IMG/VR virus record: IMGVR_UViG_3300046751_000082
Location: 1 to 34,593 of that record
From: a virus
Direction: 5' to 3' (one strand)
Length of the DNA: 34,593 bases
Position 1 is the first letter of the stretch, and every line of letters begins with the position of its first letter. The position numbers were made by a program, and so were the translations under genes. The notes beneath the pieces are model-generated. The model was given only the letters and a program-made list of their open reading frames with translations, did not search any database and was not told the DNA's origin. This document shows, in pieces, positions 5,052 to 34,593 of the stretch.

Positions 5052-5995
5052 TGGTAGGTAAGCTAACAAAAGACGATGAGCTATCAGCATCAACTGTAGC
5101 TAATGCAATGGGCAAAGGTAAATACAAATCTAAGCAACGTCAGTTGCAAGAGCACATCAAAGCCAAGCATGGTGAGAACATTAGGTTTGACCAAAACACA
5201 GCTATGGAGCTGGGAGACTTTTTTGAAGATGGCATCATAAGATTTGCAACTGAGAAGATGGGTCTCACAGATGTAGAGACTGAATTTCCAGAAGCTTTTA
5301 CCCATCCATTCTTTCCCATTCAATGTTCTTTAGATGGAACTGCAATGGCTAATGATCTAACTATTGAGGAGAATCCACAGTTAGGCATTTATGTTCCAGA
5401 CCATGAGCATATCACCATCAATGGTAAAGGCATCATTGAATGTAAATTAACTAAAGACTATCCAAAAGACTATCCTGAAGATTGGCGTGGCTGGATTCAG
5501 CTTAAGACTCAAGTTGAAATCACTGGCTGCTCTTGGGGTATGCTGGTGATCTTTAGTCATATTGCCAATGAGATCAATTACTTTTTCTATCAACGTGATC
5601 CAGCCTTTAGCGAAGAGTTAAGAATTATTGCTGATGACTGGCAGAAAAGAGTTAAGACAGAAACTTACTTTGATCCTGAAACCTCTGATGATGCTTATGC
5701 AATGTTTGAGGATATCCCAGTGGCAGAAGATGTCTTGGAGATAGATGATTCTTTTTCTGGAATGATTGCAAGGCATGAGAATATTAATGCTGAGATTAAA
5801 GAGCTAGAAGAAGAAAAGGACTGCATACAAACTGCATTAATGGAAAAGATAGCAAACCATGAAAAGGCTGTTTGTGGCTCATATCAGCTTGACTGGGGCT
5901 ACATTAATTACAAAGCTACACCTGAGAAGATAACGCCTGCTAAGGAAGCCAGAAGCGTTAGACGTAAGCAGGTGAGGATTAAGGAAAGGAAATGA
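5051..5995 (+). CDS. YqaJ/lambda-exonuclease-type recombinase exonuclease
   Basis: 314 residues. The core shows the YqaJ viral recombinase pattern of the PD-(D/E)XK superfamily: AMELGDFFE (Glu53), SLDG (Asp95), IIECK (Glu130-Cys-Lys132) and LKTQVEITGCSWGMLVIF, the Gln-containing helix. These residues bind the metals that drive 5'-3' degradation of double-stranded DNA to expose single strands for annealing. A helical C-terminal extension (about 245-275, rich in E and K) looks like a coiled coil. No Beta-, Erf- or RecT-like annealing protein is visible nearby, so the SSB-like protein at 7934 or a host protein may supply the partner. The stop overlaps the next ATG (ATGA). Confidence 0.85.
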   Translation: MVGKLTKDDELSASTVANAMGKGKYKSKQRQLQEHIKAKHGENIRFDQNTAMELGDFFEDGIIRFATEKMGLTDVETEFPEAFTHPFFPIQCSLDGTAMANDLTIEENPQLGIYVPDHEHITINGKGIIECKLTKDYPKDYPEDWRGWIQLKTQVEITGCSWGMLVIFSHIANEINYFFYQRDPAFSEELRIIADDWQKRVKTETYFDPETSDDAYAMFEDIPVAEDVLEIDDSFSGMIARHENINAEIKELEEEKDCIQTALMEKIANHEKAVCGSYQLDWGYINYKATPEKITPAKEARSVRRKQVRIKERK

Positions 5996-6819
5996 ATCCA
6001 TATAAAATACCAGAGCCAGCATTGATTAGTTTTAGTGGTGGTAGAACATCTGGATTCATGCTGTGGAATATTCTTCAAGCATATAATGGGAAATTACCAG
6101 AAGATATTTGGGTTGCCTTTGCTAATACAGGTAAAGAAGCCCCAGAAACTTTAGATTTTATTAATGATGTTTCTGAAAAGTGGGGCGTTCATATTAATTG
6201 GTTAGAGTTATCTATACATGAAGAAAAACCTATTTGGAGAACTAGGCAAGTAAATTATAAAATTGCATCAAGAAATGGCGAGCCTTTTGATATGTTGATA
6301 AAAAAAAGATCATTTTTACCAAATTCAGTTATGAGATTTTGTACTTCAGAGTTAAAGATTAATGTCATGAAAAGAATGATGGAGCTGATGGGGTATAAAC
6401 AATGGTTTAATGTGGTGGGATTAAGGTATGACGAGCCAAGACGAGTAGCCAATATAAGAAACCAAACAGGTAACAAATGGACTAGTATTACTCCTATGGC
6501 AGATGCAAAACACACTATTAAGGATGTTATTGAATTTTGGGATAAGCAAAACTTTGATCTTAATTTAAACGCTTATGGTGGCAAAGCACCAGCAGGCAAT
6601 TGTGATCTTTGTTTTTTAAAGGGCATGGATACTACTATTAAGATACTTAAAGAAAGACCAGAAATGGCTGATTGGTGGATAGCCAAAGAAAAAGAAACTG
6701 GGGCAAAATTTAGAAAAGATAGACCTAGTTACATTGAATTGTTAGACATAAGCAAACAACCTGAAGCTGTTGGTCTGTTTAATGATGATGACCAGATGAC
6801 TTGCTTTTGTCATGATTGA
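5992..6819 (+). CDS. PP-loop ATPase, PAPS reductase/DndC-like
   Basis: 275 residues. The N-terminal nucleotide-binding PP-loop reads SFSGGRTSG (residues 13-21). It is followed by FANTGKEAPETLDF, the conserved NTG-E pattern, and GLRYDEPRR (about 143-151), the R-x3-E-x2-R signature of phage PAPS-reductase-like and DndC-like proteins. Cysteines C117, C204-x2-C207 and C271/C273 could hold an iron-sulfur cluster. Known for the superfamily: the adenine-alpha-hydrolase fold activates a substrate with ATP, in sulfate reduction, RNA thiolation or DNA phosphorothioation. The ECGLH motif of true PAPS reductases is absent, so assimilatory sulfate reduction is unlikely. It sits between exonuclease and small replication genes, pointing to nucleic-acid modification. 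Confidence 0.8.
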   Translation: MNPYKIPEPALISFSGGRTSGFMLWNILQAYNGKLPEDIWVAFANTGKEAPETLDFINDVSEKWGVHINWLELSIHEEKPIWRTRQVNYKIASRNGEPFDMLIKKRSFLPNSVMRFCTSELKINVMKRMMELMGYKQWFNVVGLRYDEPRRVANIRNQTGNKWTSITPMADAKHTIKDVIEFWDKQNFDLNLNAYGGKAPAGNCDLCFLKGMDTTIKILKERPEMADWWIAKEKETGAKFRKDRPSYIELLDISKQPEAVGLFNDDDQMTCFCHD

Positions 6820-7933: not shown

Positions 7934-8506
7934 ATGGATTTTTTTGAAGAAAATTCTGGTGAAGGAAATGGGTCAAATTCTTATCTTAAGTTTTTGGCAA
8001 AAGAAAAGGCGTGGTATATAGGAGAGAATGTCTATGACATGGAATACATCCTACTAGACCCTGATACTATCCAGACTGGTCTGGGCAGATATTCAGGTGG
8101 CTATGAGTTTGAATTCTCTGATATTCCATTTAGTAAAGTCGAAAACAAAGAAGGCTGGAAAAAGGCTTTCAGTGTTTGGGCTTTCACAAGCGATAAGCAA
8201 GTCGTGCAATGGGAACGAGCAGCATGGGGAGAGCTACAAGGCTTTAAATCCATGTGTGAGAAGTTCTGGATGCAAAAAGCAGCTAACGAAGGTCAGTTGC
8301 CTTGCTTTAGATACTTAGGCTCAAGAGGTGTTAAATTCGATTCTGGATTCTCCAGCGAAGTGCCTGAGTTTGAGTTTGTTGCTTGGAAACCAAGACCAGC
8401 AGAGTTTGTTATTCCTGCATGGGCGAATGATGAGGATGTACCAGCACCTGTTGCTGAAAGTCCTGTTGAGAAAACAGTGGTAACTGACGATGACATCCCA
8501 TTTTAA
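7934..8506 (+). CDS. Single-stranded DNA-binding protein (SSB-like)
   Basis: 190 residues with a charged, aromatic-rich body and the ending VTDDDIPF. This matches the acidic DDIPF tip by which bacterial and phage SSBs recruit partner proteins. The N-terminal two thirds (SYLKFLAKEKAWYIGENVYD, later QVVQWERAAWGELQGFKSMC) do not look like the classic E. coli SSB OB fold; I take it as a divergent phage ssDNA-binding protein. A Pro/Ala/Val-rich linker (about 160-180) separates body and tip, as in SSBs. Start ATG behind AAAGGAG. The stop overlaps the primase-helicase start (TAATG), supporting a role at the replication fork. Confidence 0.75.
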   Translation: MDFFEENSGEGNGSNSYLKFLAKEKAWYIGENVYDMEYILLDPDTIQTGLGRYSGGYEFEFSDIPFSKVENKEGWKKAFSVWAFTSDKQVVQWERAAWGELQGFKSMCEKFWMQKAANEGQLPCFRYLGSRGVKFDSGFSSEVPEFEFVAWKPRPAEFVIPAWANDEDVPAPVAESPVEKTVVTDDDIPF

Positions 8507-10443
8507 TGACAAACGAGGACTGGGCATCAATAGCTAAACCTATTGGCTTAGAATTACTTGGCGAACCAAAGTCTGAAACATCGACTGAGGTTCGCTGGGG
8601 AACTCATGGAAGCTTTTGTTTGAATAAGCAAACAGGGGGCTTCTATAGCTTTGAACTTGACGAAGGTGGTGGTACTATGTGGCTACTTAAGCACTTCGAT
8701 CAAGATATAAACGAAACACTTAAACGATTTGGTTTTGGCGATGAGGGAGCAATGTCTGACGACATTCATTTTATCTCCCCAAAAAAAGAAGCACCTTCAT
8801 CGCCATCTTTGACCAGAGATCAATTTGTCGAGCTCTGGTTGCAGGCAAGCATCAAGATTAAATACTCTGATGACTTTGCAGTGCTGAGATTCCCAGAGGG
8901 TCATCCTAGAAGCAAAATTAAATATGCACCTTTTAGCAAGCGTGGTGATCTTTGGTATATGAAACGCCCAGAGGGGCTTATGCCTTTGTATCTATCAGAT
9001 AGAAGCGATGATAAGCCTGTGCTACTTGTCGAAGGTGAGAAGGCAGCCATAGCAGCCGAGCAGATATATGCTGGGCAGGTTGCTTGTCATCATGGGGGCT
9101 GTAAGGGCTGGGATAAAACAGACTGGTCAAGCATCTATGGTAGGCAGGTTTACATATACCCAGATAATGACGAAGCTGGGCTCATGTTTGCAGAGGAAAT
9201 ATCTACTTACTTAAGAACTAATGGCTGTGAGGTAACTATTGCAAAACCTCATGCAGATTTGCCAGAAAAAGGTGATTTACATGAAGCTAAAGAATTGGCT
9301 ATTTACAGCGATTCTGATGCTCTTGAGGACTATATCAAAAACACCCCAGTAGACAGACCCAAAGGAGCTTTATACTTCGAGAGAGCTGATCTGGTGATGT
9401 CTCAGGTGGATAATCCTGATTGGCTTATTAAAACAGTTGCAGAGAGGTCTAGTTTGCTTGGTGTATTTGGTGCACCTAAGTCTGGAAAGTCTTTTGTGGC
9501 TATTGCTATGGCAGCAGCTATAGCTAATGGCTCTGACTTCTATGGGCATAAAGCAAAACGTGCTCCAGTGGTTTATCTATGTGGCGAGGGTAAGCGTGGG
9601 GTTAAACGTAGACTTGCAGCGTGGAATCAATCAAAAGAACCCTTAGATGGTGCTCCTTTATTCTTATCTAACAGAGGAACTCGAATACTTGATCCAGACG
9701 AATATGCAAAGCTAATAGCTGAACTAGATGTGATTGAAGCTCAGGAAGGCGAGTTAAGTTGTATTATATTTGATACGCTTAACAGAAACTTTGGAGCTGG
9801 GTCAGAGAATAGCACTGAGGATATGACGTTGTTTATCAGTAGGATGGATGAGCTTATCCACAAATATGAAGCTGCTGTGATTATCGTCCACCATACAGGA
9901 CACTCATCTAATGGCAGGCAGCGTGGGAGTTCTGTGTTAGGTGCATCAATGGATTATGAGTTTAAGATTGAGCGTAAGGATGACACTAAAACTGGTGATA
10001 CCCATGAAACAATGTTTGTAACTATGGAGCAGACTCTTAACAAGGATGGTATGGGTATGGAGAAGATTAACTTTGAATTTAAAGAGGTTGAGCTTCTTGG
10101 GTTTGAAGATTTGACTTCTGGTTACTTAGAAGTAACAGATCATGTAGTACAAAAAACAGAAAATTTAACAGGAACAGCAAAAGAAGTTAACAGGGGGTTA
10201 AAAAGGTTAGCAGCAGATAAAGCAGCAAAAGATGGTGGCAATGAGGAAGATTACACGTTTACTGTTGGTGATTTAGTTGGAACTTGTAAGACAAAAAGTG
10301 GTACAGATATGGCACGTTCTAATATTGATCAGTACATAAAACAAATGGTTGATAAGGATCAGGTTGTTAAAGTTGATAATAACTATCAATCAATTGAATA
10401 TAAAAAAATTGTTAAATTCGAAGGCAAATTTGATGATAAATAA
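8506..10443 (+). CDS. Primase-helicase: TOPRIM domain fused to RepA-type ATPase
   Basis: 645 residues in three parts. Residues 30-62 (GSFCLNKQTGGFYSFELDEG) resemble the N-terminal primase segment but lack zinc-binding cysteines. The TOPRIM domain shows VLLVEGEKAA (Glu176) and YPDNDEAG (Asp220, Asp222). From about 315 follows a RecA/RepA-type helicase domain: Walker A GAPKSGKSF (322-330), VVYLCGEG, Walker B CIIFDTLNRN (Asp423), and VHHTGHSSNGRQRGSS as sensor and loop. It should prime and unwind DNA at the phage fork. The C-terminal 130 residues are helical and Lys-rich and may bind DNA. It sits after the SSB-like gene and directly before the repeat-rich possible origin. Confidence 0.9.
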   Translation: MTNEDWASIAKPIGLELLGEPKSETSTEVRWGTHGSFCLNKQTGGFYSFELDEGGGTMWLLKHFDQDINETLKRFGFGDEGAMSDDIHFISPKKEAPSSPSLTRDQFVELWLQASIKIKYSDDFAVLRFPEGHPRSKIKYAPFSKRGDLWYMKRPEGLMPLYLSDRSDDKPVLLVEGEKAAIAAEQIYAGQVACHHGGCKGWDKTDWSSIYGRQVYIYPDNDEAGLMFAEEISTYLRTNGCEVTIAKPHADLPEKGDLHEAKELAIYSDSDALEDYIKNTPVDRPKGALYFERADLVMSQVDNPDWLIKTVAERSSLLGVFGAPKSGKSFVAIAMAAAIANGSDFYGHKAKRAPVVYLCGEGKRGVKRRLAAWNQSKEPLDGAPLFLSNRGTRILDPDEYAKLIAELDVIEAQEGELSCIIFDTLNRNFGAGSENSTEDMTLFISRMDELIHKYEAAVIIVHHTGHSSNGRQRGSSVLGASMDYEFKIERKDDTKTGDTHETMFVTMEQTLNKDGMGMEKINFEFKEVELLGFEDLTSGYLEVTDHVVQKTENLTGTAKEVNRGLKRLAADKAAKDGGNEEDYTFTVGDLVGTCKTKSGTDMARSNIDQYIKQMVDKDQVVKVDNNYQSIEYKKIVKFEGKFDDK

Positions 10444-10569
10444 AGTGTATGTAATATATGTATGTTTGTATGTAAATGTATGTAAAATCGTTGAAAATAT
10501 GTATGTATGTGTATGTGTGTCTAGAGACACATACAACATACATTCAAAGCCTTACATACAAACTCACAT
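10444..10569 (+). repeat. Iteron-like repeat region, candidate replication origin or control site
   Basis: The 126-base gap is built of TGTATG-type units. TGTATGTAA occurs exactly at 10446, 10467 and 10477, a near copy TGTATGTTT at 10459, and the inverted copy TTACATACA at 10552-10560. In the middle, GTGTCT-AG-AGACAC forms a palindrome extended by a GTATG...CATAC pair with a two-base bulge. Phage origins often lie next to the replication gene and carry such iterons with AT-rich DNA. A regulatory site for the gene at 10570 is the alternative. Confidence 0.5.
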
Positions 10570-11076
10570 ATGAAAAAACCAGAAAATAAAACATATTCTT
10601 CTGTAACTTTAAAAATGCTGGAAGAATATCAGGCAGAGAAAAAAGAGTTTCACACCACTTGGGGCGATAAACACAGAATAGATCGTTTAGTAGGTGTTGA
10701 TCTCAGGGTTAAGTTTATGAAAGCAGAGCAGCTATTTAAAAAATCTGTTGCTGAAAAGAATGATATTCAAACCCAGAAAATGATTCAGATGATGCGAAGA
10801 GCATATGTGGCTTTGATGAATGAGCTTATGACTCTTGGCTACAAACCACTTGAACCTCACATACGCTGTTTTGATTGGGATGGAGTTATTTGGTATGTTA
10901 CAGACTTAGATTATGAAATACCTAGAGCTATGCAACGTTACAAGCATGAGGGTGAAGCTAATTTTATTAGCATACAAGAACTGCTTAGGTGTGTACCAAA
11001 AGAACTTATGGATATGAGACTGGAGTTAGCAATGATGTTTGAGGGCAGTAAGTTTGTGAGGATAGAAAAGAAATGA
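10570..11076 (+). CDS. Hypothetical protein behind the repeat region
   Basis: 168 residues, mostly helical and charged, with several methionines. Visible segments are SVTLKMLEEYQAEKKEFHTT, QTQKMIQMMRRAYVALMNEL, a short aromatic beta part CFDWDGVIWYVTDLDYEIP, and a helix SIQELLRCVPKELMDMRLEL. No nucleotide-binding or metal motif and no membrane span. The ATG at 10570 is inside CACATATG with no clear Shine-Dalgarno, so translation may depend on the upstream repeats or hairpin. It is the only mid-sized unknown in the replication module; an origin-binding or helicase-accessory role is possible but unproven. Confidence 0.65.
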   Translation: MKKPENKTYSSVTLKMLEEYQAEKKEFHTTWGDKHRIDRLVGVDLRVKFMKAEQLFKKSVAEKNDIQTQKMIQMMRRAYVALMNELMTLGYKPLEPHIRCFDWDGVIWYVTDLDYEIPRAMQRYKHEGEANFISIQELLRCVPKELMDMRLELAMMFEGSKFVRIEKK

Positions 11077-11422: not shown

Positions 11423-11637
11423 GCAAAGATATGGTAAACCATCCAGAGCATTATCAAGGTGGAGTAGAGTGCATTGATTACATACAACAACAGCTTGGAG
11501 CTAACTACCCTAGCTATCTGGAAGGTAGCATCATAAAATATATACACAGGCACAAATACAAGGATGCCAACATACAGGACTTAGAGAAAGCCCAGTGGTA
11601 TCTCAATAAGCTTATAGAGCATTACAAAAACTTATGA
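11419..11637 (+). CDS. DUF3310 protein (SaV-like)
   Basis: 72 residues. It has the full DUF3310 signature: VNHPEHYQGGVECIDYI, a spacer with YLEGSIIKYIHRHKYK, and DLEKAQWYLNKLIEHY at the end. The family is widespread in tailed phages, often near nucleotide-metabolism or replication genes, and is annotated as nucleotide-kinase-like without a shown activity. Start chosen at the ATG in the ATGA overlap with a GGAGAATG-type Shine-Dalgarno. Family assignment is secure, function is not. Confidence 0.88.
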   Translation: MSKDMVNHPEHYQGGVECIDYIQQQLGANYPSYLEGSIIKYIHRHKYKDANIQDLEKAQWYLNKLIEHYKNL

Positions 11638-11792
11638 ACATAGATAAAGAGAAACTAAAACAAAAGATAGAGCAAGGTAAGTCTAGCCATGACATAGCCA
11701 TGCAGTATGACGTACACCCATCAACTGTTAGGCGTAAAGCTAAAGAGTTAGGACTTAAGTTTGAAGCTAAGTCTCACTGGAGAAAGAAATGA
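11634..11792 (+). CDS. Small helix-turn-helix protein
   Basis: 52 residues. The segment KSSHDIAMQYDVHPSTVRRK followed by AKELGLKF is a typical homeodomain-like HTH of the kind found in resolvases and small regulators. Lys-rich flanks favour DNA binding. It begins in an ATGA overlap with DUF3310 and overlaps the next gene by 4 bases. Its position just ahead of the late genes suggests a regulator of the early-to-late switch, or a helper of the terminase. Both are inference. Confidence 0.6.
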   Translation: MNIDKEKLKQKIEQGKSSHDIAMQYDVHPSTVRRKAKELGLKFEAKSHWRKK

Positions 11793-33605: not shown

Positions 33606-34593
33606 ATGGAAACGCTACAGCGTACAGCAAACAGAGGAAGCATATCTACTGGGTATGATATTGATAACTCTTTGAAGTTAGAAGAAGATAACAATGAATA
33701 TCTACACTACACACCATCCAGTCAAACTGATTATGAAAGATTAACTTTTAGTTTATGGATAAAAAGAACTGAAATTGGTGCTACTTCTAAATTAGCAGAG
33801 TTTGGTAATGGAACATCTAATACCAGTAATTTAAGAATTGGTTTTGATGATAGCGATAGATTATACATTTATGGTAATTCAATAGTCTGGAGAGAAAGTA
33901 CCCAAGTTTTTAGAGATACAAGTGCTTGGTATCATTTATTTTTTAAGTTTGACACTACTCAAGGAACATCTAATGACAAGATTAGAGTTTGGGTTAATGG
34001 CAACATGATTGCACATACCGACTATAATACTGTTAATAATCCTAGTAGTGGTTCAGCTATGGGGTTCAATGCCACTTTGCCACAAAGCATCGGAACACAA
34101 CAAGAAGGTGGTGTAAATGCTAGTACAAACTTTAATGGTTACATTGCTCAAGTTTGGTATTCAGGTGGAACGCCACCTAATGTAACTGATTTTGGCGAAG
34201 TTGACAGCGACTCAGGTATTTGGAAACCGATAGATATTAGTGAAGTTTCCATCCCAGATGCTAGTGGTTTCTTTTTAGACTTTAGTGATTCTTCAGATTT
34301 AGGTAATGATTCAAGCAGTAATAATAATGATTTTACTTTAGTCAACATCACAGCAGCCGACCAAGCAACTGACACACCTACCAATAATTTTTGTACGCTT
34401 AATGTTATATCTGCTATAGGTAATAACACTTATACAGAAGGAGCAACAAAAGGAATTGCAAACGCCCAAAACGAACAAGCTGAAGGTACTTTTATGATTA
34501 ATAAAGGTAAGTGGTATTTTGAAGCACAAAATATTACATCTACTGGGGCAATGTTCGGCTTCGGTAAACCTAATAATTGGGCAACAGGAAACC
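33606..34593 (+). CDS. LamG/SPRY-like tail adhesion protein, N-terminal part (continues at base 1)
   Basis: ATG 33606 opens a frame with no stop to the window end. Joined to 1-538 (omitting the repeated 34502-34593) it encodes 477 residues. The start METLQRTANRGSISTGYDID then NSLKLEEDNNEYL is common in marine phage adhesins. Residues about 45-215 form a LamG/concanavalin-like jelly roll: RLTFSLWIKRTEIG, AWYHLFFKFDT, IRVWVNGNMIA and FNGYIAQVWYSGG. A SPRY-like domain starts at about 296 (KGKWYFEAQN). Two carbohydrate-binding-type folds in one virion protein suggest sugar-containing receptors. Placement 1 base after the preceding stop indicates coupling. Confidence 0.82.
   Translation, partial: METLQRTANRGSISTGYDIDNSLKLEEDNNEYLHYTPSSQTDYERLTFSLWIKRTEIGATSKLAEFGNGTSNTSNLRIGFDDSDRLYIYGNSIVWRESTQVFRDTSAWYHLFFKFDTTQGTSNDKIRVWVNGNMIAHTDYNTVNNPSSGSAMGFNATLPQSIGTQQEGGVNASTNFNGYIAQVWYSGGTPPNVTDFGEVDSDSGIWKPIDISEVSIPDASGFFLDFSDSSDLGNDSSSNNNDFTLVNITAADQATDTPTNNFCTLNVISAIGNNTYTEGATKGIANAQNEQAEGTFMINKGKWYFEAQNITSTGAMFGFGKPNNWATGN
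34502..34593. repeat. Terminal overlap, copy 2 (circular closure)
   Basis: Exact copy of bases 1-92. Reading through it keeps the LamG/SPRY frame open, so the two ends belong to one locus. See the entry at 1-92. Confidence 0.95.

Follow-up and report, generated by a model that had tools for sequence, protein, structure and literature searches.

A candidate replication origin behind a phage primase-helicase and its predicted C-terminal iteron reader

Comparison of a repeat-filled intergenic gap with the same locus in related phages suggests that this gap quite probably is a replication origin, and that its repeats are read by the C-terminal winged helix predicted for the primase-helicase encoded just upstream. 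The window analyzed covers all 34,593 bp of a virus record from a marine phage. An exact 92-bp direct terminal repeat occupies positions 1-92 and 34502-34593; the record is circular or terminally redundant, and the map is therefore closed at about 34.5 kb. A tail/virion-protein ORF lies at the junction. The genome encodes terminase, portal, major head protein and tail genes; a PAPS-reductase-like gene is located at 5992-6819 in the phage replication/recombination region. GC skew stays positive across all 1-kb windows and does not switch sign at the gap, which is uninformative on the origin because the main genes are all on one strand.

Repeats, palindrome and the upstream primase-helicase

The primase-helicase gene (645 aa; 8506..10443, plus strand) stops at 10443 and the next gene, encoding a 168-aa protein (10570..11076, plus strand), starts at 10570, leaving a non-coding gap of exactly 126 bp (10444..10569, plus strand); the sole frame overlapping it is a spurious 74-aa TTG frame. 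The 9-base repeats, exact inverted copy and central palindrome that the initial annotation had placed in this gap were confirmed by their coordinates, and the gap has the following layout: (i) four direct iterons, TGTATGTAA/TGTATGTTT/TGTATGTAA/TGTATGTAA, start at 10446, 10459, 10467 and 10477 (span 10446..10485, plus strand), the exact copies of TGTATGTAA lying at 10446-10454, 10467-10475 and 10477-10485 and the further copy at 10459 being a near one, (ii) a short A-rich spacer AATCGTTGAAAATA follows (10486..10499, plus strand) and is all that the gap offers as a possible AT-rich unwinding region, (iii) a second, tighter iteron cluster TGTATGTATGTGTATGT (10500..10516, plus strand), with GTATGT 4 and 6 bp apart and the near copy TGTATGTAT at 10500-10508, runs into the palindrome, (iv) the palindrome TGTATGTGTGTCTAGAGACACATACA has a CTAG apex (10510..10535, plus strand), and (v) inverted iterons ACATAC are found on the minus strand at 10529, 10536 and 10554 (10529..10560), with an exact inverted copy, TTACATACA, at 10552-10560. 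The spacing of GTATGT in the direct iterons is 13, 8 and 10 bp, so that the direct repeats stand near helical-turn spacing in non-coding DNA.

The repeat and palindrome cluster is unique within the 34.6-kb genome. The 6-mer TGTATG/CATACA has 10 copies within 150 bp, whereas the next best cluster in the window holds 4 copies of any 6-mer, and the top 6-mer count in 200 same-genome background segments of equal length is at most 4. The palindrome score is above those of all 200 background segments, and the gap as single-stranded DNA has a fold z of -4.85 (4.85 sd below shuffles). A lone exact copy of TGTATGTAA at 11478-11486, inside a DUF3310 ORF, was treated as chance because about 0.3-0.5 exact copies are expected in the window by our own estimate. 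Searches of Rfam for a family, of the gap for a terminator, and of phage records at the DNA level or with the 168-aa protein gave no match.

The upstream protein comprises a Toprim domain, a RepA/RecA-like helicase (AAA_25) and the predicted C-terminal winged helix. In Pfam the helicase matches AAA_25 with an E-value of 6e-32 and the Toprim matches are sub-threshold; the Toprim residues E176/E178 and D220/D222 and the Walker A region 322-329 are conserved across 16 relatives. RSF1010 RepA (1g8y) was the sole PDB sequence match (E-value 4e-10), and Foldseek with the full protein found Twinkle, T7 gp4 and RSF1010 RepA to be similar. The C-terminal ~100 residues are predicted to form a winged helix, the proposed iteron reader (10171..10392, plus strand): the AF2 model of the domain, whose core has a pLDDT of about 90, consists of three helices with a two-stranded wing, and VIA-align comparison with winged-helix proteins gave Z of 8-10, values that indicate a common fold only.

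Arrays and hairpin apices at related loci

Relatives of a first set were collected with the gene product, which gave 43 viral loci, and with a profile, which gave 80 viral and 10 bacterial-genome loci. Nearly every intact copy of the gene has behind it a gap of ~100-150 bp that contains repeats and a palindrome. The repeats asked for by the initial annotation at the same locus of related phages are thus present, with a sequence that differs by lineage: GTATGT, GGGGTAGTT, GGTTGGGT, AAGGTGGAAT, GAGTGTG, GGAAGTTT, AGGGAA, TCTGCCA, GTCTAT and TGGATA. Compared with 200 background segments of the same contig, the top 6-mer count exceeded all of them in 27 of 34 arrays and the palindrome score in 20 of 34; the direct-repeat excess was not clear in L024 and L108. 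Most direct copies are spaced at 9-13 bp; after them come a spacer and then a tight cluster that extends into the palindrome. The same layout was observed in the cultured phages CGphi29, 1N2-2, XX1924, PB15 and Rhizobium 16-3, with the repeats GGGGACA, CGGTACA, TGGTTCA and GCGTGACA, and in the loci from Methylobacterium and Roseomonas genomes, the bacterial-genome homologs being ~30% identical. No clear array was found 3' of the gene in the homologs of Mycobacterium Murdoc, Salmonella Sp4, Vibrio 1271, Microcystis Mae-JY30, Corynebacterium phi673 and the Manatee Spring phage. In Roseobacter phage CRP-406 (L118:3634 onward), GGCTGGAAA is located directly after the primase stop and overlaps the next gene; these repeats may be an array of this type lying within coding sequence.

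Five loci (L025, L027, L061, L088 and L101) seemed to be exceptions having no gap and proved not to be: in each, the array is intact and has been displaced by one unrelated gene inserted behind the primase-helicase. Methyltransferase-like ORFs with DPPW, DPAW or NPPY motifs (L101:6875-7402, L061:5206-5713 and L088:6884-7336) sit exactly at the junction of the primase-helicase gene with the array, and an unrelated ORF of 150-153 aa occupies the same place at L025:3198-3650 and L027:6859-7320. The final 116 residues and the GGATATA iteron are the same in L101 and L099, although L101 carries the insertion.

For a second set, comprising 25 unique loci whose proteins are related to those of PB15 and 16-3, three predictions were written before the sequences were fetched. 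The top 6-mer count was above the background maximum in 18 of the 25 loci and not in the other 7.

The arms of the palindromes vary, and their apices are CTAG, CTATAG, CTTTAG, CTAAAG or CTATAAG. CT-N0-4-AG was found on the dyad in 13 of 24 classes, compared with 6 of 180 other palindromes of the same contigs (p 4e-10, a test made on data on part of which the motif had first been noticed). By a rule fixed before fetching, 11 of the 25 second-set loci had CT(N)AG at the apex of their longest perfect palindrome. A second apex type, YGTAR, was recognized post hoc in 4 classes and in 0 of the 180. Even the homologs of ~30% identity from cultured phages and bacterial genomes share the CT(N)AG apex, and its constancy amid changing iterons suggests that a conserved region of the protein reads it, perhaps the primase.

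Exchange of the C-terminal domain together with the repeats

When the window is aligned with L017, sliding DNA identity stays at 94-100% in most of the upstream gene and in a large share of the 5' region of the primase gene, apart from dips to 70-82%; it is 16-70% over the helicase, C-terminal and gap regions and returns to 93-100% in the 168-aa gene. The comparison of L016-L021 with L024 is narrower: identity is 0.90-0.97 in the N-terminal part, 0.94-0.95 in the helicase and 0.20-0.24 in the C-terminal part, and similarity in the gap is at most 0.10. Thus, a change of repeats involves, at minimum, the gap and the final ~100 residues of the protein. Likewise, L146/L147 compared with L142/L143 have a helicase identity of 0.99 and a C-terminal identity of 0.22-0.23, and their iterons are CTAACA versus GGGGGTC, with no shared iteron k-mers (L146 tested), whereas L146 and L147 have a C-terminal identity of 0.99 and an identical iteron. 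Between L146 and L144, identity is mostly 81-96% until 340 bp before the stop codon, 20-58% between that point and 158 bp past the stop, and then 76-95%. In both L024/L017 and L146/L144, the loss of DNA identity is confined to the final ~340 bp of the gene and the array, with recovery beyond, so that, by these alignments, the putative winged-helix segment and the array are replaced as a block between conserved flanks. The loci L142-L147 except L145 are from one metagenome, and assembly chimeras are therefore possible among them; L017, L024, L151 and L154 are from other samples.

In a partial Mantel test of the second set, which left out the partial sequences L152 and L155 and is not fully independent because it included the already-seen PB15, XX1924, 1N2-2 and CGphi29, iteron sharing was correlated with the C-terminal part (r 0.25, p 0.013) and not with the helicase (0.03, p 0.38) or the N-terminal part (-0.25). 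The corresponding test of the first set favors the helicase (gap versus helicase r 0.41, versus C-terminal part 0.10) and was not used as support; the helicase excess is probably explained by the frequent exchange of larger blocks and by saturation of C-terminal identity. Taken across the loci, the co-variation points to the predicted C-terminal winged helix as the cognate initiator. Two near-isogenic pairs have the iterons CGCAAC/CGTAAC (L134/L135) and GGTAACA/GGTACC (L151/L154). In these pairs the iteron shifts by about one base or register, and the proteins are 97-100% identical in the helicase and 57-84% identical in the C-terminal part.

The array could instead be an operator, through which the winged helix of the primase-helicase would control downstream transcription, including that of the 168-aa gene. 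Co-variation of domain and array would look alike in that case, the array is located between two same-strand genes, and repression through iterons is frequent among plasmid initiators in general. However, promoters are not in excess in 10300-10700 (3 found versus 3.0 expected), the long palindrome with its conserved apex and the iterons spaced at 9-13 bp exceed the needs of an operator, and the form of the array is kept when an unrelated gene parts it from the primase. We consider a function as operator in place of origin unlikely; a dual role as operator and origin is possible.

The initial annotation had proposed as iteron binder either the 168-aa protein or the 52-aa HTH protein (11634..11792, plus strand), and to these a 190-aa protein may be added. 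If one of them were the binder, the C-terminal co-variation would reflect the recombination neighborhood only, and these genes are indeed conserved beside the array. Their conservation extends across a complete change of repeats, however, which argues against all three: the 168-aa protein of the window is 95-97% identical to those of L017, L020 and L021, whose repeats are GGGGTAGTT and not TGTATGTAA, the HTH protein of L006 (GTATGT) is 100% identical to that of L021 (GGGGTAG), and the 190-aa protein is 96-99% identical across different iteron types. In L101, moreover, the array and the C-terminal domain stay paired despite the methyltransferase-like gene between them. Both proposed binders thus lack support, and a binder among these proteins appears very improbable. 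The least credible explanation is a packaging (pac/cos) site or recombination hot spot, for which the start of the terminase small subunit 1.9 kb downstream and the breakpoints flanking the array on both sides could be cited, since the array follows the primase-helicase also where the homologs, in bacterial genomes and cultured phages, are only ~30% identical, and is replaced along with the winged helix rather than kept as a constant boundary sequence.

Origin function and known systems

The origin reading, as it had been put forward for the position behind the primase-helicase, is supported by the comparison because the array occupies the same place across a wide protein family. For such an origin we infer DNA binding, helicase loading and hairpin priming in the following order. 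The winged-helix domains of several subunits would bind the direct iterons about one helical turn apart (~10-bp spacing), and the bound subunits would load the RepA-like helicase ring, with the DNA opening at the adjacent inverted repeat. The exposed palindrome would form a hairpin with the CT(N)AG apex, at which the Toprim primase would start a primer. Extension would fall to the host polymerase, as no phage DNA polymerase was recognized among the ORFs annotated in the window.

A wider generalization is more tentative, and we hold it slightly less probable than its failure. A large family of phage primase-helicases of Toprim and RepA-like type would carry a swappable origin cassette of winged helix and cognate iterons, set around a fixed CT(N)AG hairpin as the sequence-and-structure start signal of the primase. 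One protein would then do the work of RepA, RepB' and RepC of RSF1010, and recombination would re-specify origins by moving the winged helix and the array as one block.

If the origin reading is true, an origin and an initiator can be assigned for many marine and proteobacterial phages without an annotated replication start, and the family would supply naturally matched winged helices and short DNA sites, the near-isogenic pairs L134/L135 and L151/L154 among them, and would thereby make a DNA-recognition code and phage origin incompatibility directly testable. The exchange of reader and sites together suggests a way in which related phages could avoid replication interference, and the conserved apex offers a defined site at which hairpin-directed priming by a Toprim primase could be tested. 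No earlier description of such a phage arrangement was found in the open-access literature.

Several known systems share components with this family. In lambdoid phages, the O proteins and ori, that is, initiator and iterons, co-vary between related phages; there, ori is inside gene O, and O is neither a helicase nor a primase. In SaPI Rep and SCCmec Cch2, the C-terminal domain of an initiator helicase reads short iterons just downstream of its own gene, and inverted repeats are unnecessary for binding by Cch2 (PMC7581432). The phage family likewise combines a putative DNA-binding domain at the C-terminus with iterons immediately 3' of the gene. It differs in the helicase, which is AAA_25, similar to RSF1010 RepA and T7 gp4/Twinkle and not of the SaPI/SCC type, in the Toprim domain of the same chain, and in the palindrome with its shared CT(N)AG apex.

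The oriV of RSF1010 combines iterons with hairpin single-strand initiation sites and is served by binding, helicase and primase functions (PMC4234260). The likeness to RSF1010/IncQ lies in the RepA-family helicase, assigned by the sequence match to 1g8y and by Foldseek at a TMt of about 0.7. The primase RepB' and the iteron binder RepC are separate proteins there, whereas the phages have one fused protein with a predicted C-terminal winged helix and one central palindrome in place of ssiA/ssiB. RSF1010 iterons are about 20 bp long, whereas those described here are ~6-9 bp at 9-13 bp spacing.

P4 alpha is a single chain with a Toprim primase, a helicase and, at the C-terminus, a winged helix that binds iterons, and pRN1 ORF904 is a primase-helicase-winged-helix protein with a structured origin 3' of its gene, conserved in structure and not in sequence (PMC4234260). 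Toprim and the predicted winged helix are also present in the phage protein, whereas the helicase of P4 is of SF3 type and that of the phages is RecA/RepA-like; pRN1 has an archaeo-eukaryotic primase, an SF3 helicase and a 100-nt stem-loop with no iterons. In P4, the crr element is separate and no array is known directly behind the gene. Thus, the family appears by analogy to resemble SaPI Rep/ori, Cch2, P4 alpha, pRN1 and RSF1010, and by the comparisons made here it belongs to none of them, as its RepA/RecA-like helicase is fused to Toprim and a predicted winged helix.
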